From: Melioribacteraceae bacterium
GTDB taxonomy: Bacteria; Bacteroidota; Ignavibacteria; Ignavibacteriales; Melioribacteraceae
Length of the DNA: 41,060 bases
Direction: 5' to 3'
NCBI GenBank assembly: GCA_026983955.1
Contig: JALSTB010000133.1
Span: 1-41,060, forward strand
Each line of letters opens with the position of its first letter. Position 1 is the stretch's first letter. Shown piece after piece: positions 8,143-35,437 of the stretch. Both the position numbers and the translations under genes were made by a program. Under the pieces are notes generated by a model. It saw only the letters and a list, made by a program, of their open reading frames with translations, searched no databases and had not been told where the DNA came from.

Positions 8143-8583
8143 TCAATAATTGCTTTTCAACATCCAGATTGCTTTTTCCAGCCATTGGACAAAATCATCC
8201 GCCATATTAACCGTGGTATTATCTTTTTCAATTCCCGCCAAATCCGATGTATGCCGGAATTCATTAGCCAAATATTCAAAATCCTTAATCAATCCGTTTA
8301 CAACATCTTCCGTTGTGAAATTGTTTTTTTCTTCTTCGTTAATCCGGGAATTTTCCAAATACTGTTTCATCGTGTTGAACGGTTTACCACCCAACTGCAA
8401 AATTCTTTCGGCAATATCGTCATACTGAAGTGCGAAAAAATTGTAATATTCTTCCGTTACCCTGTGGATTTCGAAAAATTGCGGACCTTGAATATTCCAG
8501 TGGTAATTGTGAAGTTTAACATACATCACTTGTACATCGGATAAATTTTTGTTTAACTGAGCAATTAATTTGTTTTCACCCAT
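8143..8583 (-). CDS. dps: Dps-family ferritin-like DNA-protection protein
   Basis: Dodecameric mini-ferritin that oxidises Fe(II) with hydrogen peroxide and shields DNA. The 146-residue protein carries the Dps ferroxidase ligands, which sit between subunits: His28 (NYHWNIQGP), His40 (EIHR), Glu44, Asp55 and Glu59 (DDIAERILQLGG). These align with His31, His43, Asp47, Asp58 and Glu62 of the Listeria protein at a constant offset of three; Asp47 is replaced by Glu. An excellent ribosome site (AGGAGATGACAAA) fixes the start. Its own strong terminator follows. It lies just downstream of the peroxiredoxin and perR on the same strand, but separated by a tandem-hairpin terminator and preceded by its own PerR-box-like palindrome. 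Induction by peroxide is therefore likely. Confidence 0.95.
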   Translation of the reverse strand: MGENKLIAQLNKNLSDVQVMYVKLHNYHWNIQGPQFFEIHRVTEEYYNFFALQYDDIAERILQLGGKPFNTMKQYLENSRINEEEKNNFTTEDVVNGLIKDFEYLANEFRHTSDLAGIEKDNTTVNMADDFVQWLEKAIWMLKSNY

Positions 8584-8633
8584 TTTGTCATCTCCTATTT
8601 TGTATTAGTTATTATATTTGATTTTCTATTAAG

Positions 8634-8648
8634 TAATAATTATTATCC
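8634..8648 (-). promoter_or_regulatory. PerR-box-like operator upstream of dps
   Basis: The 15-mer TAATAATTATTATCC matches the published PerR box TTATAATNATTATAA at 11 of 14 defined positions, with the central ATAAT-T-ATTAT perfect. It lies about 50 bases before dps. Nearly the same sequence (15 of 16 bases over the longer motif ending CCA) occurs before perR at 9882-9897. Confidence 0.6.
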
Positions 8649-8664
8649 ATTAAGTTCAAAAAAA

Positions 8665-8707
8665 TCCCAATTCACAAGGAATTGGGAAGCCGCGTTTTAC
8701 ACGCGGC
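8665..8707 (-). terminator. Tandem-hairpin terminator after the peroxiredoxin gene
   Basis: Reading the minus strand, the first stem is GCCGCG/CGCGGC (8689-8694 with 8702-8707). It is followed at once by a second, perfect 8-bp stem TCCCAATT/AATTGGGA (8665-8672 with 8680-8687) and then seven T residues (8658-8664). This is a strong intrinsic terminator that separates the peroxiredoxin transcript from dps. Confidence 0.85.
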
Positions 8708-8717
8708 AGTTCATAAA

Positions 8718-9365
8718 TTAAAGACTCTTTTTACTGAAATACCAATCGACGTAATCGTATCCTTCGCTTGCACGTTTTTCGGCTTCTTCTTGGGTTGCCG
8801 GCGGAGGAACAATAACTTTATCGCCGGGTTTCCAATTTTCCGGAGTTGCTACGCCGAATTTGTCGCTTGTTTGTAATGCTTCCACAAGTCTGAGAATTTC
8901 ATCGATACTTCTTCCGTTGGTTAACGGATAATAAATCATCGCACGCAATATTCCCTTATCGTCAATTACGAAAACAGCTCTTACCGCAGAAGTATCTGCG
9001 GCACCGGGATGAATCATTCCGTAAAGCTTGGCTACCTTCATATCCAAATCGGCTATTACGGGGAAAGGAATTTCAACATCGAATTTCTCTTTAATGTTTC
9101 TCACCCAAGCTAAATGCGAATAAATACTGTCGATACTCAAACCGATTACTTGCGTGTTCAGTTTTTTGAAATCCTCGAACCTTTTGGCAAAAGCCATGAA
9201 CTCAGTTGTGCAAACAGGCGTAAAATCTGCCGGATGCGAAAACAATACAACCCATTGACCCTTGTAATCCGATAATTTGATATCTCCGTGGGTTGTTTTA
9301 GCCGTAAAATCCGGCGCCGGCTCATTTAATCTTGGCAATGATACAACTTGAGCTTGTTCTTCCAT
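8718..9365 (-). CDS. 1-Cys peroxiredoxin (Prx6-type)
   Basis: Cytoplasmic thiol peroxidase that reduces hydrogen peroxide and organic peroxides. The 215-residue protein has the peroxidatic motif [12 protein letters not shown] with the catalytic Cys52. It contains no other cysteine, so it must be a 1-Cys enzyme that uses an external thiol for recycling. The extended C-terminal region after about residue 150 ([15 protein letters not shown], then [13 protein letters not shown]) is typical of the Prx6/archaeal-type subfamily rather than AhpC. AAGGAGAG upstream supports the start. It follows perR by 57 bases on the same strand and is likely co-transcribed with it. A tandem-hairpin terminator follows. 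The reductant is not encoded nearby. Confidence 0.95.
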
Positions 9366-9422
9366 ATTTCTTACTCTCCTTATTTTAGTTTTTTTGTTAG
9401 TGAATCGATATATATAGTGAAA

Positions 9423-9863
9423 CTAATTCGTTTCCTTCAACCTACACTCCGAACATATTACATTGAAATGGATGCTGTATCCCAAAAGTTCGTTCCCTTG
9501 CAAAATGTGCTCGGGAACTTTAATGGTATTCAACGAGGGATCAATCACATCAATAATTTTGTTACACTTAACGCACACAACATGATGATGCGGCTCGGTA
9601 ATAGGATCGTAACGCACGGTGTTGTGTAAATGTGTAACCACGGAAACTATTCCGTGCTTTTCAAAAGTTTCCAATGTTTTATAAATTGTAGCCAAAGAAA
9701 TTGTTGGATGTTCGGCTTTTATTTTTTTATATATGTCTTCCGGTCTGGGATGACTGTGATCGTCGATCAACGCCTTAAATATGGCAAGTCTTTGAGGTGT
9801 AACACTCAATCCCAAAGTCCGGCATCTGTTTACAAAATTATCTATTGCTGTTTGTGTAGTCAT
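9423..9863 (-). CDS. perR: Fur-family peroxide sensor, PerR type
   Basis: Metal-dependent winged-helix repressor of 146 residues. The N-terminal DNA-binding domain contains LSVTPQRLAIFKAL and ISLATIYKTLETFEKHG. The C-terminal dimerisation domain has the structural zinc site in two CxxC motifs (Cys97/Cys100 and Cys137/Cys140). The regulatory metal ligands of Bacillus PerR (His37, Asp85, His91, His93, Asp104) are all present at a constant offset of one: His38, Asp86, His92, His94, Asp105. Asp in the KIIDV segment, where Fur normally has Glu, is the usual PerR indicator. It heads a probable perR-peroxiredoxin operon, with PerR-box-like palindromes before it (autoregulation) and before dps. In PerR, His37 and His91 are oxidised by peroxide in the Fe form; that this holds here is inference. 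Confidence 0.92.
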   Translation of the reverse strand: MTTQTAIDNFVNRCRTLGLSVTPQRLAIFKALIDDHSHPRPEDIYKKIKAEHPTISLATIYKTLETFEKHGIVSVVTHLHNTVRYDPITEPHHHVVCVKCNKIIDVIDPSLNTIKVPEHILQGNELLGYSIHFNVICSECRLKETN

Positions 9864-9897: not shown

Positions 9898-9987
9898 ATA
9901 ATAATGATAATTAAAGAAAAAAGCAAGTTTAAAGCAACTTTTTTATCGTTTCTTCATCTATAATAACACATCAAAGAACAGGCGGGT

Positions 9988-10542
9988 TTGGATAGTTATT
10001 CCGAAAAAATAGTTCGTTTCACAATTGTTTATAATAAATATAAACGAAAGGTATACAATTATATTCTCAGAATGGTTTCCGATGAAAATTTGACAGAAGA
10101 CCTCATGCAAACGGTTTTTCTAAAACTTTTTGAAAATATGGACTTGATAAAAAACAAAAACGGTATCGGAAGCTGGCTTTTTACCACCACCAGAAATGAA
10201 ATTTACGGATTTTTCCGGGCTAAAAAAATTAAAATTGATCAATTCCGGAGCGAAACTCTTGAAGATGCCCACACAGTTTCTTACTCGGACGTTCAGAAAA
10301 ATTATGACCTGAAAGAACTGAAAGAGATAATTTTCGAAGAATTGGAGAAGATGCCAATCGAACAAAAAGATGTTTATTTGTTAAAAGAATACGGCGGATT
10401 CTCATATAAAGAAATTGCCGATATTTTGGAAATTGATGTAAAAACAGTTAAAAGCCGGCTTTACAAAGTCCGGCAAAAACTTATCGGCAGAATTGGGAAA
10501 ATTTTACTTAAAGATTTTACAAGGGTTAAAAATGGACAATGA
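9988..10542 (+). CDS. ECF-type RNA polymerase sigma factor
   Basis: Alternative sigma-70 family factor of 184 residues. Region 2 is seen at about 8-75 (FTIVYNKYKRKVYNYILRMV, then LTEDLMQTVFLKLFEN and GSWLFTTTRNEI). Region 4 is at about 125-175 (MPIEQKDVYLLKEYGGFSY, then EIADILEIDVKTVKSRLYK, the -35-binding helix-turn-helix). The start must be the TTG at 9988: a TAA stop lies at 9964-9966 in frame, no ATG or GTG lies between, and the next Met (residue 29) is inside region 2. CAGGCGG just upstream can serve as ribosome site. Its end overlaps the following membrane protein by 11 bases, the classic translational coupling of sigma and anti-sigma genes. The regulon is unknown. Confidence 0.92.
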   Translation: MDSYSEKIVRFTIVYNKYKRKVYNYILRMVSDENLTEDLMQTVFLKLFENMDLIKNKNGIGSWLFTTTRNEIYGFFRAKKIKIDQFRSETLEDAHTVSYSDVQKNYDLKELKEIIFEELEKMPIEQKDVYLLKEYGGFSYKEIADILEIDVKTVKSRLYKVRQKLIGRIGKILLKDFTRVKNGQ

Positions 10543-10993
10543 AAAATTAATCGAAATGATTGAGCGGTACTTCGATAACGAATTGAAAAAGGAAGAAGAA
10601 GCGTTTTTATTTGGCGAATTATCAACAAACGATGAAGCCCGGCGTCAATTCAAAATCAGAAATGTTTTGAAAACCGCCGTTCAATTTTCTTACGAAGAAT
10701 TTCCCGGGAATTTGGATGAAAGAATTTTAAGCTCACTTCCTGTGGGAACCGCAAACAAACGGAAAATGCAAATTGATCTTCCCGCTGCAATTTCCGCTTT
10801 CCTTACAATCATTTTGTTGATTGTTTCGCTGTTTATGTTTAACGAAACCAAACATTATAAGTCGGAACTCGAATTAACTATTTCAAAAATCAATCAACAA
10901 CAACAGTTGATTCAGCTTCTGATGAATACTTTACCTGCAACGGAAGTTACAGGTTATTTGAAAAACCAAGTTGTTGTTACACCTGAAATGTGA
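10532..10993 (+). CDS. Probable membrane-bound anti-sigma factor
   Basis: Predicted 153-residue single-pass inner-membrane protein. I place the start at the ATG at 10532, because AAGGGTTAAAA precedes it and MDNEKLIEMIERYFDNEL is the usual anti-sigma N-terminal helix. The longer open frame (from 10493) would overlap the sigma gene by 50 bases. Residues about 1-70 form a helical cytoplasmic domain (FDNELKKEEEAFLFGELSTN, then ARRQFKIRNVL), which looks like the sigma-binding anti-sigma fold, although the zinc-binding HxxxCxxC motif is absent. One transmembrane helix follows (about 85-105, ISAFLTIILLIVSLFMF), then a short periplasmic tail with a Gln-rich coil. The role is inferred from gene order and layout; sequence similarity alone would be weak. 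Confidence 0.75.
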   Translation: MDNEKLIEMIERYFDNELKKEEEAFLFGELSTNDEARRQFKIRNVLKTAVQFSYEEFPGNLDERILSSLPVGTANKRKMQIDLPAAISAFLTIILLIVSLFMFNETKHYKSELELTISKINQQQQLIQLLMNTLPATEVTGYLKNQVVVTPEM

Positions 10994-11002
10994 GGTAAAA
11001 CT

Positions 11003-11824
11003 ATGAAAAAAATAATTTTAATCTTGGTTGCTTCGTTTGTTCTCTTCTCGTGTGGTAAAGAGAAAAACGGAGTGAAAATTATAGAACCCGTGAAAGAAAA
11101 GTATCTTACAATTCAAATATTGAATTTTGCGGACGAGAGTCAAGCCGGATTGTTGGATTCCCTGAATAACCGGATTGCCAAGATGTTGAACGACAAAAAA
11201 TACGTTAATCCGGTCAATCCCCAAAAGCCCGTCGATTTCGATTATATTATTTACATTAATGAAAACGGAAAAGTAGACAAGTTGGTTGTTTTGGAAAGTC
11301 CCTTACCCGAAATTGACCGTTTTGTAGCAAACCAAATTAAAGACTGGAATTTAGATGTATTATTTGAAGGGGAACCGGTAAAATCAAAATTCAACATGAA
11401 ATTTTCGTATTTCAAAACCGGGAAGGGATATACACCGTTTCCAAGAACGAATTTAAAAGTATCAACACCGATACCCGACAGAACAGGAAGCCCGTATTTC
11501 ATTGCCGCTGATAAAATGCCCCAACCGGTGGGCGGAATTGCGGCCATTCAAAAGAAAATAGTTTATCCCGAAGAGGCGAAAAGTTCGGGAGTTGAAGGCA
11601 GGGTATTCGTAAAAGCGTATATAAACGAAAAAGGAGAAGTCGATAGAGTGAAATTAATCAAAGGAATCGGAGGAGGCTGTGATGAAGCGGCAATGCAAGC
11701 AGTTAAAGAAACAAAATTTACACCGGCTTTGCAAAAAGGCAAACCGGTAAAAGTGCAAGTTTCGGTGCCTATTATTTTTAAGCTCGCTTCCAACGGAAAT
11801 ACCGGAAGTCAATCAAAGAAATAA
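11003..11824 (+). CDS. Lipoprotein with a TonB C-terminal domain
   Basis: 273-residue protein with a lipoprotein signal (lipobox LFSC, Cys17) instead of the usual TonB transmembrane helix. The middle (about 30-150) contains a first alpha/beta segment (NENGKVDKLVVLESP and FVANQIKDWNL) that resembles a degenerate TonB-C repeat. The clear TonB_C domain is at about 180-265: MPQPVGGIAAIQKKIVYPEE, SGVEGRVFVKAYINEKGEVD and AAMQAVKETKFTPALQKGKP. TonB-C domains contact TonB-dependent receptors or, in lipoprotein form, have unknown partners. GAGGTAAAACT precedes the ATG. It is 9 bases after the anti-sigma gene and so the third gene of the operon. A strong hairpin follows. An envelope-signalling role is inference. 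Confidence 0.88.
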   Translation: MKKIILILVASFVLFSCGKEKNGVKIIEPVKEKYLTIQILNFADESQAGLLDSLNNRIAKMLNDKKYVNPVNPQKPVDFDYIIYINENGKVDKLVVLESPLPEIDRFVANQIKDWNLDVLFEGEPVKSKFNMKFSYFKTGKGYTPFPRTNLKVSTPIPDRTGSPYFIAADKMPQPVGGIAAIQKKIVYPEEAKSSGVEGRVFVKAYINEKGEVDRVKLIKGIGGGCDEAAMQAVKETKFTPALQKGKPVKVQVSVPIIFKLASNGNTGSQSKK

Positions 11825-11834
11825 GCCGGATAAA

Positions 11835-12449
11835 TTAACCGCTGCCCCGTGGCGGCGGTTTTATTCCCACATACCGTACAACACAAGCCTTACCACTGTG
11901 ATGACGGCTTTCGTTCAATTCTATAATTTCTTTGCTGAATTTCTCTATTTCCAAATCTTGAAAATCGGTGTAAACATCTTCCAAGGAATAAAGCAACTCG
12001 ATATTGGGCGGTCCGCCGCTGCGGTATTTTAATTGATCTTTATCGAATACTTCTAGGATTATCCTGCCACCCGGTTTTAATGCAGCAATTGCTTTTGCAT
12101 GCACTTCTTTTCTCAATTCTTCATGTAAATGTAAAAATATGATAACTACCAAATCGTAAGAACTTTCGGGCGGAGTGAAATCTTTCAGGTCGGCAACCGT
12201 GTAATTAATTTCAGCATTTTTCCGTTTTGCCAATGCAAGCGCTTTATGTTTTCCTGCGCGACTAAAATCGACCGCATCAACTTTCCAACCGAGCGTAGCG
12301 GCATAAACGGAGTTTCTCCCTTCGCCTTCGCCCAAAAACAAAGCCCGTCCCGGTTCAAGTTTATCTATTTCGGTCTTAAAAAATTCATTCGGTTCCGTGC
12401 CGTAGATATATTCATCTCCGGAAAACCGTTCATCCCAAAAATTTCCCAT
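11835..12449 (-). CDS. Class I SAM-dependent methyltransferase, substrate unknown
   Basis: 204-residue Rossmann-fold methyltransferase. Motif I is seen as ALFLGEGEGRNSVYAA (about 36-51), motif II as VDAVDFS, motif III around YTVADLKDF, and motif IV as YDLVVIIFLHLH. The post-motif LKPGGRIILEVF is also present. The short single domain and the GEGEGRN form of motif I resemble TehB/thiopurine-type small-molecule methyltransferases; the substrate cannot be predicted. The C-terminal KPPPRGSG is encoded by the terminator hairpin of the convergent operon. It lies 70 bases after parA on the same strand. Confidence 0.88.
   Translation of the reverse strand: MGNFWDERFSGDEYIYGTEPNEFFKTEIDKLEPGRALFLGEGEGRNSVYAATLGWKVDAVDFSRAGKHKALALAKRKNAEINYTVADLKDFTPPESSYDLVVIIFLHLHEELRKEVHAKAIAALKPGGRIILEVFDKDQLKYRSGGPPNIELLYSLEDVYTDFQDLEIEKFSKEIIELNESRHHSGKACVVRYVGIKPPPRGSG
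11837..11866 (+). terminator. Terminator of the sigma/anti-sigma/TonB-like operon, inside the end of the methyltransferase gene
   Basis: AACCGCTGCC (11837-11846) pairs with GGCGGCGGTT (11851-11860), ten pairs including one G-U, around a 4-base loop, and is followed by TTATT. The left arm begins in the stop codon of the convergent methyltransferase, so the hairpin DNA also encodes that protein's last residues. Confidence 0.8.
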
Positions 12450-26731: not shown

Positions 26732-29530
26732 TTAGAGGTTTAGTTTCAAGCGTGTGTAAATATATCTTCCGTTATATCCGGATGGTGTAAAGTTGCTATA
26801 AGGGAAAATCCCGTTAAAACTGTTTCTCTTAAGATTTTTGTCGGGATAAGCATCAAAAATATTGTTAACACCAACGGCTAATGTTAATTGTTGCATTAAC
26901 TCATATGCAAAATCGATATTTGCATGCCAAACCGTTCCGAAAGTTTGATCCCTTGCAGGATCTTGATTATATGAAGTAAATTCTCCGTATCTATGAACCC
27001 TGAGAGTTGTGTTAAACTTATCGTAAGCATAACTGACTGCAAAATCCCAAGAAGAGAGAGGTTGCCCTTTTTCGATTCTGCCTTGCTCAACTCTTCCCAA
27101 CAAAGGAATATCGGTAATTTGTTTGAGTTCTTGCGGAGTTTGAATTTCGTCTTTATTTGTAATTTCGGTTTTATTGAAATTCATAGCAACAATGAATTTC
27201 AAACTTGATTTTTGATTCAGGCGGATACCGTATTTAGCCGTGACATCCAGTCCCAAAGTTTTTGTATCAACGGCATTGGTAAAATATCTACCGCCGGTTG
27301 CATTAATTCCGCGTGCTTGCAAGAAATTCGGGATGTCGCCGCCTCTGAAGTTTTCGGAAAGAACGATGCGGTCGGCCAAAGTTATCATGTATCCGTCAAC
27401 AGTTAAATCGAAATTTTCTTGCGAGACGGTAAAACCGGCACTAATGTTAACCGAAGTTTCGGCTTTCAGCGGTTTTGCTCCCAATGCTTTTGCTACGTCG
27501 GTGTTTACCGGGAAAGTTCCCACTTCGAATGGAACGCCGCCAATAAAGTTTGTAGCAATGGAAGAGAAAAACGCTTGGGATAAAGACGGCGCTCTGAAAC
27601 CGTTACTTACGGCGCCTCTGAATGCGAACCCTTTTGCAAATTCGTAACGGGTTGCAAACTTACCTGCAAAAGCCGAGCCGAAATCGCTGTAGTTTTCATA
27701 TCTTCCGGCAACGCTTACCGTCCAGTTTTTAACAACATTGTTTTCCAAGTCAACGTAAAAACCGAAATTGGTTCTGCTTTCGTTCTGTTCGTTCTTCGGG
27801 GAAAATCCCGGGAACACTTGTGAGCCGACCGGAGCGGGTTGACCGGCATTCGGTCCGTCTAAAATAGGAACTCCTCCGTTTTCGTACGACATCGGTTCGC
27901 CGGCAACTATTTGATAATTTTCCCAACGGAATTCGGCACCAACAGCAACCGTTAGCGGTTCCGCCGTTCCGATATCGTAAGTTCTTAAAAAGTCTGCCGT
28001 GGTTACAGCTTGAGATGCTTTAAGGCTGCCATCGTCGAAACTTGTTTTGCTTTGTGTACCGAACGAAGCGTTAAGTGTGTTGAAAGTGTTAAAATTAAAT
28101 GTGTTTGTGCCGAATGTTTGTGCAAAATCGTAAGACCACTTACCGAAATTTCCTTTTAATCCGGCAACGATAGAACCGTCGTAAATTTTCGGTGAAATTT
28201 TTGGCAGGAAACCATCGGGATAAATTGCCCGGACGTTTCTGTTATCGAGCGATCTTCTGTAATACCCGCCGGCAAAACCGGTTCTGTAAGTATATCCACC
28301 GAATGCGTAAAAATTAAGATTTTCCTTAATCGGAATATCGGTGTTCAAAAATACGCCCATATCAATCGTACGGGAATCGCCCCAATGATGATTCAATCTG
28401 TTAAAAGTTGCTTCTCTCGGATCGGGTGTGTTGTTTGTGGTTGCCCAATCGATATTAAAATATTGCTGTCTCGGATCCAATCCGGCTCTATTTGTACCGT
28501 TGTGGTTAACATAAACACCGCTAACGTATAAAATACCGCCGTTGCCAACATTCAAACCGTAACCGACATTTACATCGGTGGAAAAGCCGTCGGTAATGTT
28601 TACATCTTCAACTTTGCCGTCCCAACTGTAAGAGGAAGCATCTTCACCGGCAATGTTATATTCATCTTCGCCATATCCTCTTTTTTGAGTTGTAACATAT
28701 TCGCCGGCTGTTACCGAAACATCCAAGCCTACTTTCTTTTTCAATATAATGTTAATTACTCCTGCGATGGCATCGGAACCGTATTGAGCGGAGGCTCCGT
28801 CTCTCAGCACTTCAATTTTTTCAATTGCACCTACCGGAATTGCGTTCAAATCGACTCCAGAAGAACCTCGGCCTATTGAACCGTTAACGTGGATAAGAGC
28901 ACTTTGGTGTCTTCTTTTACCGTTAATAAGAACCAAAACGTGATCGGGGTTCATTCCTCTGATTGCCGCTGGGCGTACTTCATCGGAACCGTCGGTAATT
29001 GTATTTTGCGGTTGATTGAAAGAAGGAACTAACATTTTTAACAATTGTGTGGTTTGTGTTGCGCCGGTTTGCTCAATTGCTTTTTCGGTTAAAACATCAA
29101 CTGGTACGGGTGAATTAACCACGGTTCTGTTTGTACGTCTTGTACCCAAAACAACAACTTCACCTGTTCCTATTAAATCGGATTCCAATTTGAAGTCAAG
29201 TACAACGGTTTTCCCCGGTGTAACCGTTACTTGCTCGGTGGCGGCTTTGTAACTTACAAAGCTTGCTTGAATAGTATACTTTCCGGGTTTTAATTTTAAA
29301 GAATATTCTCCGGAAGTATTTGTTGCCGCACCTATTTGAGTTCCGACTACCGTAACATTTGCTCCTAGCAGCGGCTCTCCTGTGCTTGCATCGGTAACGG
29401 TACCTTTGATTTTTCCCATGTTTTGTGAAAGCACGGGTGAATTTACCGTTAGAAAAACAAGTAGAAGTAAGGTAAATGTAATCGTATTAATTTTGGAAAT
29501 ACGATTTAGAAATAGATCGGTTTTACTCAT
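26732..29530 (-). CDS. TonB-dependent outer-membrane receptor (large)
   Basis: 932-residue outer-membrane receptor. The signal segment ends near PVLSQ (about 36). A carboxypeptidase-regulatory-like domain follows (about 40-120; GKIKGTVTDASTGEPLLGAN and the TNTSGEYSLKL turn). The plug domain (about 130-270) shows PAAIRGMNPDHVLVLINGKR, IPVGAIEKIEVLRDGASAQYG and DAIAGVINIILKK. The barrel has several canonical segments (FAFRGAVSNGFRAPSLSQAFF, close to siderophore-type receptors) and a terminal aromatic-poor strand ending KLNL. AGAGGGACCC precedes the ATG. It is a single-gene unit with a strong terminator; no SusD, transporter or regulator gene is adjacent. Its substrate may be a metal chelate or peptide; sequence does not decide. 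Confidence 0.93.
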   Translation of the reverse strand: MSKTDLFLNRISKINTITFTLLLLVFLTVNSPVLSQNMGKIKGTVTDASTGEPLLGANVTVVGTQIGAATNTSGEYSLKLKPGKYTIQASFVSYKAATEQVTVTPGKTVVLDFKLESDLIGTGEVVVLGTRRTNRTVVNSPVPVDVLTEKAIEQTGATQTTQLLKMLVPSFNQPQNTITDGSDEVRPAAIRGMNPDHVLVLINGKRRHQSALIHVNGSIGRGSSGVDLNAIPVGAIEKIEVLRDGASAQYGSDAIAGVINIILKKKVGLDVSVTAGEYVTTQKRGYGEDEYNIAGEDASSYSWDGKVEDVNITDGFSTDVNVGYGLNVGNGGILYVSGVYVNHNGTNRAGLDPRQQYFNIDWATTNNTPDPREATFNRLNHHWGDSRTIDMGVFLNTDIPIKENLNFYAFGGYTYRTGFAGGYYRRSLDNRNVRAIYPDGFLPKISPKIYDGSIVAGLKGNFGKWSYDFAQTFGTNTFNFNTFNTLNASFGTQSKTSFDDGSLKASQAVTTADFLRTYDIGTAEPLTVAVGAEFRWENYQIVAGEPMSYENGGVPILDGPNAGQPAPVGSQVFPGFSPKNEQNESRTNFGFYVDLENNVVKNWTVSVAGRYENYSDFGSAFAGKFATRYEFAKGFAFRGAVSNGFRAPSLSQAFFSSIATNFIGGVPFEVGTFPVNTDVAKALGAKPLKAETSVNISAGFTVSQENFDLTVDGYMITLADRIVLSENFRGGDIPNFLQARGINATGGRYFTNAVDTKTLGLDVTAKYGIRLNQKSSLKFIVAMNFNKTEITNKDEIQTPQELKQITDIPLLGRVEQGRIEKGQPLSSWDFAVSYAYDKFNTTLRVHRYGEFTSYNQDPARDQTFGTVWHANIDFAYELMQQLTLAVGVNNIFDAYPDKNLKRNSFNGIFPYSNFTPSGYNGRYIYTRLKLNL

Positions 29531-34420: not shown

Positions 34421-35437
34421 CAGATATCCCAAAAACCCGAGCACCAAACCGGCAATTACGTTAATTAATTTCAGAACCACAAAACTCTTTTTGGAAACGG
34501 CAAGCAAAGGAAGTGTTCCGTGTCCGTCTTGAACAATGGAACTTGCCAAAAGAATACTGAATGGAATCGAACCGTTTGCAAACAGAGTAACAAAAATCAA
34601 ATGTGGGCCTGATTCCGGTATAATTCCAATCAATACGGCTAAAAGCAAAACCGTTATGTAATTCGCTTGAATCCAGGCTTCCAAATCGAGAAAAGATTCC
34701 AAAATGTGAATTACCAATAACGCACCGAAAGTCCACAGAAATATTCTCAGCAAATGTTTTTTTAACACATGTTGCCAAAGATGTTTTTCCAAAAAATGAT
34801 CGGGTACGGTTACAACTATAAACAAAGCAAGCAGGTTCGAAACGAGAAGTGTAATTTTAACCCAGTTCCAGCCGCCGTGTTCGGCTGTGTTGCTAAACAA
34901 AATAAACAGAAAAATAACAAGAACCCCCATTAACAATGCGCGCGGGAAAGACATATTTTTCAATTGATGAATAATTCTGTTACCGGGATAACATTCACAA
35001 TATTCTTCATTGTGAATTTCAAAACCGTGAACCTCGCTAGTTAAAAGTTTTGTGCCACCTTTGTAAAATTTGTCGGTCAACACACCCGCAACAAATCCCA
35101 CTGCGGAAATGATTACGGTTAAATAAGCCGCCTTTAACGGAAACATTGAAAACATAACATAAGCTTCATCGCCGCTAGTGGCAATCATTGTGGCAACCAA
35201 CGCTCCGAAAGAAACAACCTCGTGAGAATAAAGCGAAACAACTGTAAACGACCCCAAACAACCAGGCACCGCTCCCAATATTACACCCAACAAATACTGT
35301 CCGTACTTACTTTCACTCAATTCCTTTTGCCATTTGCCGTGTGTTAAAACATTAACGTATTCTACCAGCAACATCATGGCAAAAACAAAACCGGTGATCG
35401 TTAAAGCATGGGCGAGTATTTCAATAATACTTTTCAT
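34409..35437 (-). CDS. Putative 10-TM heavy-metal exporter-like permease (ArsP_2 type)
   Basis: 342-residue integral membrane protein with about ten helices arranged as two related halves. The first half has GAVPGCLGSFTVV and ATMIATSGDEAYVMF; the second has GIIPESGPHLIFVTLF and ASSIVQDGHGTLPLL. This matches my recollection of the family listed as putative 10TM heavy-metal exporter, often annotated as arsenic or manganese transporter; the substrate is not proven. A central cytoplasmic loop (about 123-160) is rich in possible metal ligands (His137, His142, Cys147, Cys149 in NEEYCECYPG). No yybP-ykoY-type riboswitch signature is recognisable in the 144-base leader. A Yip1-family gene lies upstream on the same strand. 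Confidence 0.8.
   Translation of the reverse strand: MKSIIEILAHALTITGFVFAMMLLVEYVNVLTHGKWQKELSESKYGQYLLGVILGAVPGCLGSFTVVSLYSHEVVSFGALVATMIATSGDEAYVMFSMFPLKAAYLTVIISAVGFVAGVLTDKFYKGGTKLLTSEVHGFEIHNEEYCECYPGNRIIHQLKNMSFPRALLMGVLVIFLFILFSNTAEHGGWNWVKITLLVSNLLALFIVVTVPDHFLEKHLWQHVLKKHLLRIFLWTFGALLVIHILESFLDLEAWIQANYITVLLLAVLIGIIPESGPHLIFVTLFANGSIPFSILLASSIVQDGHGTLPLLAVSKKSFVVLKLINVIAGLVLGFLGYLSGF

Follow-up and report, generated by a model that had tools for sequence, protein, structure and literature searches.

In the Sigma-E/RseA/RseB system, the envelope protein RseB is proposed to hold the tail of the anti-sigma factor. The nearest known system found for the operon analysed here is PUMA3 (VreA-VreI-VreR) of Pseudomonas aeruginosa, and Fox is also among the closest. 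PUMA3 comprises an ECF sigma factor and an anti-sigma factor encoded together with a barrel-less periplasmic protein whose C-terminal domain is TolA/TonB-like (PMC2729926). A second source reports that a PUMA3 regulon promoter drives exbB2D2 and tonB4, and that under phosphate starvation the regulon stayed at its wild-type level when vreA was deleted (PMC4971064). In cell-surface signalling of the Fec and Fox kind, a Ton-linked periplasmic domain controls an anti-sigma factor; in the case of FoxA and FoxR, the receptor signalling domain binds the anti-sigma factor by an AlphaFold-modelled strand addition and shields it from proteolysis (PMC11637429). TonB itself takes the TonB box of a receptor as an added strand beside the third strand of its C-terminal domain (CTD), and local structure weighs more in TonB-box activity than side chains do, according to a review (PMC11658791).

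The operon lies on the plus strand of a 41,060-nucleotide stretch, hereafter the window, which is contig 133 of a draft Melioribacteraceae genome (3.1 Mb, 190 contigs). It encodes an ECF sigma factor, a one-pass anti-sigma factor and a predicted lipoprotein with two TonB-C domains, D1 and D2. As in PUMA3, an ECF sigma factor and an anti-sigma factor are combined with a barrel-less TonB-domain protein. However, of the VreA architecture (STN plus TolA/TonB C-terminal domain) only the TonB part was recovered, with D1 aligning to TonB-C and no Pfam match to STN. The STN signalling domain of VreA is proposed to meet VreR, whereas the third protein here has a second, degenerate TonB-C domain instead; the gene order there is vreA-vreI-vreR rather than sigma, anti-sigma, TonB-C; and the PUMA3 operon is not under PUMA3 control, whereas the promoter here suggests self-control. 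Fec and Fox differ in that the present operon contains no receptor, the periplasmic part of its anti-sigma factor spans only about 50 residues, and neither the anti-sigma factor nor the TonB-C protein had a Pfam match to a FecR-type or STN domain at E values up to 1. The Sigma-E/RseA/RseB operon likewise has a further gene for an envelope protein, but TonB-C domains stand here in place of those of RseB, whose family gave no match in Pfam or NCBIfam at E values up to 1. With TonB and HasB, the lipoprotein shares a TonB_C domain and, in the model of D2, the TonB C-terminal fold. It differs from them in its predicted lipobox, or in some relatives a plain export signal, in place of an inner-membrane anchor with a cytoplasmic lead, in the absence of a Pro-rich periplasmic spacer, and, for 40 of 62 relatives, in a second or third TonB-C domain. 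Judged by the tested features, the system belongs neither to the PUMA3 family nor to FecR-type signalling, and its third protein is not a TonB transducer. No description of this ECF module was found in the literature searched, with subscription papers and preprints outside the scope.

Operon layout and conservation of the trio

The sigma gene (9988..10542, TTG start) encodes 184 amino acids with Pfam matches to Sigma70_r2 (E 2.5e-12) and Sigma70_r4_2 (E 3.9e-16), both over the cut-offs, and a TIGR02937 score of 87.7 bits against a cut-off of 42.9; it has regions 2 and 4 only, as expected of an ECF factor. It overlaps the anti-sigma gene (10532..10993, 153 amino acids, assigned by family alignment) by 11 bases (10532-10542), and 9 bases (10994-11002) separate the latter from the TonB-C gene (11003..11824, 273 amino acids), in which PF03544 matched two stretches (E 6.5e-25). 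An earlier sequence-only reading had given the same coordinates, overlap and gap, all exact on recheck, and its statement that the operon contains no TonB-dependent receptor holds, the two Plug-domain receptors of the window being located at 59-2266 and 26732-29530. A terminator-like hairpin follows the operon at 11839..11855 (plus strand) and is rated weak because 4 such sites were found in the region against 3.4 expected. Divergent from the operon, three adjacent genes on the minus strand (8143-9863) resemble, by eye, those of a Fur/PerR-type regulator (9423-9863), a peroxiredoxin (8718-9365) and a Dps-like protein (8143-8583). The AT-rich stretch between the regulator and the operon is very similar in genome G008 (L057).

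Comparative genomics of the three-gene order had been proposed in the sequence-only reading, with loss of the trio in relatives as the outcome that would tell against it; instead, the trio proved strongly conserved. Among 20 loci fetched for full-length relatives of the lipoprotein, the anti-sigma gene was present in all 20 and the sigma gene in 19, the remaining locus being cut at that place by the contig end. At E <= 0.001, a profile of the anti-sigma factor matched in 64 of the 79 family genomes, and 67 matches with E < 1e-15 were spread over 56 of the 79. The loci fetched for 66 of these 67 strong matches yielded 64 anti-sigma ORFs, not all independent of one another given the relatedness of the genomes; a sigma gene lay upstream of 59 and a TonB-C gene came next after 62, and the other five and two, respectively, were at contig ends. 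The trio is therefore complete wherever the contig continues. With mechanically called starts, the distance between the anti-sigma and TonB-C genes in relatives lay between -38 and 50 bases. A survey of the phylum, in which 395 genomes were drawn and at most nine candidates were scored per genome, placed strong anti-sigma matches only in Melioribacteraceae and two other families of the same order. Five loci from other families of the order all contained the trio; a terminal tail motif, described below, was clear only in L201, and these loci stand outside the tail-motif counts. In one genome of a further family of the same class (L219), sigma, anti-sigma and TonB-C proteins were present and the tail motif was absent. 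At L180:3449-3920, the anti-sigma factor of G036 is split in two ORFs, by a natural break or an assembly error.

The TonB-C lipoprotein and the anti-sigma tail

The N-terminus of the TonB-C protein, MKKIILILVASFVLFSC, reads in the alignment as a signal peptide with a lipobox, LFSC, ending in Cys17 (11003..11053, plus strand). This cysteine, pointed out in the sequence-only reading, was invariant in 21 aligned sequences; predicted lipoprotein status rests on the lipobox pattern and its conservation. Together with the lack of a cytoplasmic lead and Pro-rich spacer, the invariant cysteine argues against an uncleaved inner-membrane anchor, the other finding that was to count against that reading. 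Across 62 partners of anti-sigma factors, 47 matched the lipobox pattern, 3 had a cysteine in less typical surroundings, and the remaining 12 had no lipobox cysteine; these 12 look soluble from their sequences, and the lipid anchor is therefore not universal.

The possible second TonB-C repeat of the sequence-only reading turned out to be real. In addition to the two Pfam stretches, a family-built profile recognized the core of the degenerate domain D1 (residues 83-130, 11249..11392, E 2e-4) and the canonical D2 (residues 166-261, 11498..11785, E 3e-44), both on the plus strand, and a profile-profile comparison of the two with hhalign gave a probability of 96%. In the AlphaFold2 (AF2) model, D2 has the fold of a TonB C-terminal domain, superimposing on the TonB CTD 9ddz (Z 10.7, rmsd 1.8, 81 aligned) and on 6i97_D, a TonB fragment bound to FoxA (Z 9.6, rmsd 2.3, 89 aligned). 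D1 was modelled as strand-helix-strand-strand-helix at low to moderate confidence, with a mean pLDDT per ten-residue block of 65-79 over most of it in the first run and 48-72 in the second; no D1 match at Z >=4 was among the structure-library matches listed, a list filled by D2 and uninformative on the fold of D1. D2 shares 65%, 63% and 53% sequence identity with the corresponding domains of three TonBs encoded in this genome and plausibly reads the same ligand as these TonBs, given the 65% and 63% shared with two of them. By profile, one TonB-C domain was detectable in 22 of the 62 partners, two in 35 and three in 5, counts that undetected degenerate copies would raise and that include two partners cut by contig ends. 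Extra domains among the Pfam-scanned partners were CarboxypepD_reg in one and CARDB in another.

The anti-sigma factor consists of a cytoplasmic N-terminal half, one membrane helix recognized by eye (about residues 83-102, 10778-10837) and the short periplasmic part, and no Pfam family matched it. The hallmark of zinc anti-sigma (ZAS) factors is a His-Cys-Cys zinc motif; no cysteine occurs in this protein, and the RsrA model matched it only at E 0.079, far under its cut-off. Its last nine residues, NQVVVTPEM (145-153, 10964..10990, plus strand), form a tail that is conserved at the C-terminus of relatives, including anti-sigma factors only 30-50% identical to that of the window, in variants such as NQIIVTPKM, NEIIITSEL, NEIIIEARM and NPIIIRPTM. 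The sequence of this tail resembles the apparent TonB boxes of the 24 Plug-domain receptors of this genome, for example NEVVVTAGK, KEIVVTANK and NEVVVEAEQ. Against a BLOSUM-based matrix built solely from 22 receptor boxes of this genome, which were aligned by eye with two of the 24 receptors (L086, L087) left out, NQVVVTPEM scored 8.5, compared with a null 99th percentile of 6.5.

The tail motif tracks the type of TonB-C partner. With a motif pattern that was fixed after the first tails had been seen, it was found in 41 of 52 anti-sigma factors with a canonical TonB-C partner and in 1 of 10 with a weak D2 match (L164, whose partner is cut by a contig end). It was absent from the one strong anti-sigma factor whose partner is cut off and from all 17 generic anti-sigma factors without a TonB-C neighbour, and among 338 other mechanically called ORFs it occurred at the C-terminus of one. 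Scored with the receptor-box matrix, 25 of the 52 canonical-partner tails exceeded the 99th null percentile and 40 the 95th, whereas at either level the counts were 0/10, 0/1 and 0/17 for the weak-partner, cut-off and generic classes; none of 200 column-permuted matrices reached the real median. An initial matrix, later replaced, used composition-only pseudocounts and punished isoleucine; with it, scores above 7 were reached by 10 of 63 trio tails and 1 of 338 nulls, and by none of the 18 tails lacking a TonB-C neighbour. Eight of the 11 canonical-partner tails failing the motif are near misses by eye, as is the weak-partner tail NKIVIRTNL of L179. One subgroup of trios (L175, L176, L177, L178, L181, L182 and L179:4425-5684) has partners with diverged TonB-C domains; these seven form one clade, the motif is present in none of their anti-sigma factors, and L175, the only one scanned with Pfam, is the CARDB-containing partner.

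The tails also have features of their own. The residue after the hydrophobic triplet was R or K in 27 of the 42 motif-bearing tails, and neither was seen at this place in the receptor boxes read (24 in this genome; 29 legible of 30); the residues at this position in boxes of this genome and three others include T, S, E, V and N, and one box had K inside the triplet. The final residue was L, M or I in 36 of the 42, and proline was third from the end in 19. The tails thus often place L, M or I at the terminal carboxylate, something that a TonB box does not need.

Docking of the tail was not seen in the structure prediction that the sequence-only reading had called for: in two AlphaFold2 runs on chains read through the TGA of the anti-sigma gene, the tail remained undocked at low confidence, with block means of about 36-56. 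This outcome weighs little either way, because the runs lacked anti-sigma homologues.

A shared promoter and a small putative regulon

A predicted ECF promoter of the operon, GCAACTTT (-35 part), N13, CATCT (-10 part), occupies 9934..9959 on the plus strand and ends 28 bases ahead of the sigma start codon. GCAAC-N17-ATCT was found in 42 of 59 sigma upstream regions of the family. The longer pattern GCAACWTT-N13-CATCT had the promoter of the operon as its sole exact match in this genome, and GCAACWTT-N13-CATCTNT occurred at 64 sites in 45 of the 79 genomes, compared with 2 sites for the reversed pattern. These sequence patterns suggest that the operon is probably autoregulated, and we infer that the motif is used by this sigma factor.

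With one mismatch allowed, this genome contained 13 promoter sites against 4 for the reversed pattern. Eleven of the 12 sites outside the operon fell inside ORFs of >=120 amino acids, some of which are perhaps not real genes, and the only one lying intergenically ahead of a gene preceded an exported TPR protein of 432 residues (G000:C18:17864-19159). Orthologues of the TPR gene were identified in 21 of 79 genomes, and 16 of the 19 checked had the promoter in front (<=2 mismatches, shuffle frequency <=0.01). The site in one of these 16, G045, is 50 bases within the called ORF, and the start was therefore probably mis-called. The three orthologues without a promoter belong to G030, G034 and G032, and in G032 the TPR gene is directly behind the trio. 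At seven loci (L073, L152, L153, L161, L163, L164 and L167), a more distant relative of the TPR protein is encoded between sigma and anti-sigma genes, or beside the anti-sigma gene where the contig is cut before sigma. The motif also stands ahead of a TonB gene in G043 (L277), and no receptor gene was found behind the promoter in this genome. Regions were fetched for 20 of the 64 exact family sites; some of these sites lay inside ORFs or had no clear target and were left out of the regulon. The shared promoter thus defines a small putative regulon, in which the TPR protein may help to place or sense the TonB-C protein.

Two further loci involve TPR genes. In G041 (C31:10275-11534, L291), a TPR gene with a one-mismatch promoter occurs in a genome with no strong anti-sigma match; either the sigma module was missed or the gene is under another sigma factor. 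Near the TPR gene of G060, L306:328-2108 on the minus strand contains, by eye, an ECF sigma/anti-sigma pair followed by a gene for a 202-residue exported protein.

A possible tail clamp and competing explanations

These observations are best explained by a model, tentative as a whole, in which the TonB-C protein clamps the anti-sigma tail as if it were a TonB box and thereby gates the release of sigma. The one-pass anti-sigma factor would keep sigma at the inner membrane. Its periplasmic C-terminal strand would mimic a TonB box, and one of the lipoprotein's TonB-C domains would take up this strand as an added edge strand, as TonB does with receptors. So clamped, the anti-sigma factor would be protected or kept in a sensing state. 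The tail would be freed when the TonB-C protein is drawn off, for example by TonB boxes on loaded or jammed receptors, or alternatively when it fails to reach its place. Regulated proteolysis of the freed anti-sigma factor would then release sigma, which would transcribe its own operon and the gene for the exported TPR protein. An RseP homologue and four MotA/ExbB-family genes are present in the genome. We infer four points here: that the tail is bound, that receptors compete, that the anti-sigma factor is proteolysed, and which way the switch works; of these, competition from receptor TonB boxes is the most daring. The sequence-only reading had suggested an envelope-signalling module in which a lipid-anchored TonB-C domain touches receptors, the anti-sigma factor or both; contact with the anti-sigma factor has gained circumstantial support from the TonB-box-like tail, and the emphasis on the lipid anchor was only partly right, considering the 12 of 62 partners without the cysteine.

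A somewhat doubtful alternative regards the TonB-C lipoprotein as an output of the sigma factor, made with the TPR protein and sometimes TonB, that binds receptors or the cell wall during envelope stress and never the anti-sigma factor. Probable autoregulation and the promoter common to the TPR gene and the TonB gene of G043 would fit such a role, as would the freedom with which relatives vary the TonB-C gene in domain number (1-3), additional domains (CarboxypepD_reg or CARDB) and lipobox. Nevertheless, the TonB-C gene directly follows the anti-sigma gene in 62 of 62 uncut cases, whereas the TPR gene moves about, and the tail motif goes with the type of TonB-C partner.

This last association also bears on the unlikely possibility that the conserved tail is a protease or PDZ docking signal (degron), or else a strand for dimerisation, and has nothing to do with the TonB-C protein. 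Proteolysis is a common means of controlling ECF anti-sigma factors, and the frequent terminal L, M or I would suit a degron. However, proline third from the C-terminus, as in 19 of the 42 tails, is awkward for classical PDZ strand pairing, and the motif is missing from the 17 generic anti-sigma factors of this bacterial family, which would be expected to encounter the same proteases. It is very improbable that the product of the third gene is a standard TonB energy transducer with its N-terminus kept in the inner membrane: despite the PF03544 domain and strong identity to true TonBs, it has the invariant Cys17 and lacks the Pro-rich spacer and cytoplasmic lead that the TonBs of the group both have, and some relatives carry plain export signals and no lipobox cysteine.

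If the tail-clamp model is true, TonB boxes would be signalling codes as well as transport handles, a single switch could report on the combined state of many receptors (this genome has 24 Plug proteins), and TonB-C domains that cannot be energy transducers would have a role. A general form of the model, which we regard as quite doubtful, would have a class of anti-sigma factors carry a C-terminal TonB box of their own. The reader of this box would be a dedicated TonB-C protein, lipid-anchored or soluble and often tandem, for which free receptor boxes would compete, such that the switch would count engaged transporters rather than sense one ligand. Even on a conservative reading, the locus represents a Melioribacteraceae ECF module with a defined promoter and a small putative regulon.

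TonB-C domains are also found in other exported proteins around the trio. In several relatives, additional genes for exported single-TonB-C proteins, or a TonB gene, follow just downstream, and small exported proteins with one TonB-C domain each, about 114-131 residues long, are encoded 3' of the trio at L060:8124-8492, L061:7388-7780, L065:7134-7529, L066:7573-7962 and L075:5326-5697. Exported proteins of 381-575 residues, each with three tandem TonB-C domains detected, adjoin the anti-sigma gene at L162:2615-4342 (minus strand), L159:3639-5024, L163:3661-5094, L167:2211-3605 (minus strand) and L161:128-1273 (minus strand). A tree of 110 TonB-C domains was poorly resolved, with 7 label changes, at least 3 of them forced by starred branches; 14 of the 16 rows for small single-TonB-C proteins grouped in one supported clade. 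Neither a single origin nor gene conversion is claimed, since trio domains intermix with TonB in the tree. Elsewhere in this genome, a 399-residue exported protein with two TonB-C matches (L005/L006; G000:C120, about 34656-35402) has an N-terminus, PDGKVYSRESF, that resembles a MORN-type repeat by eye.
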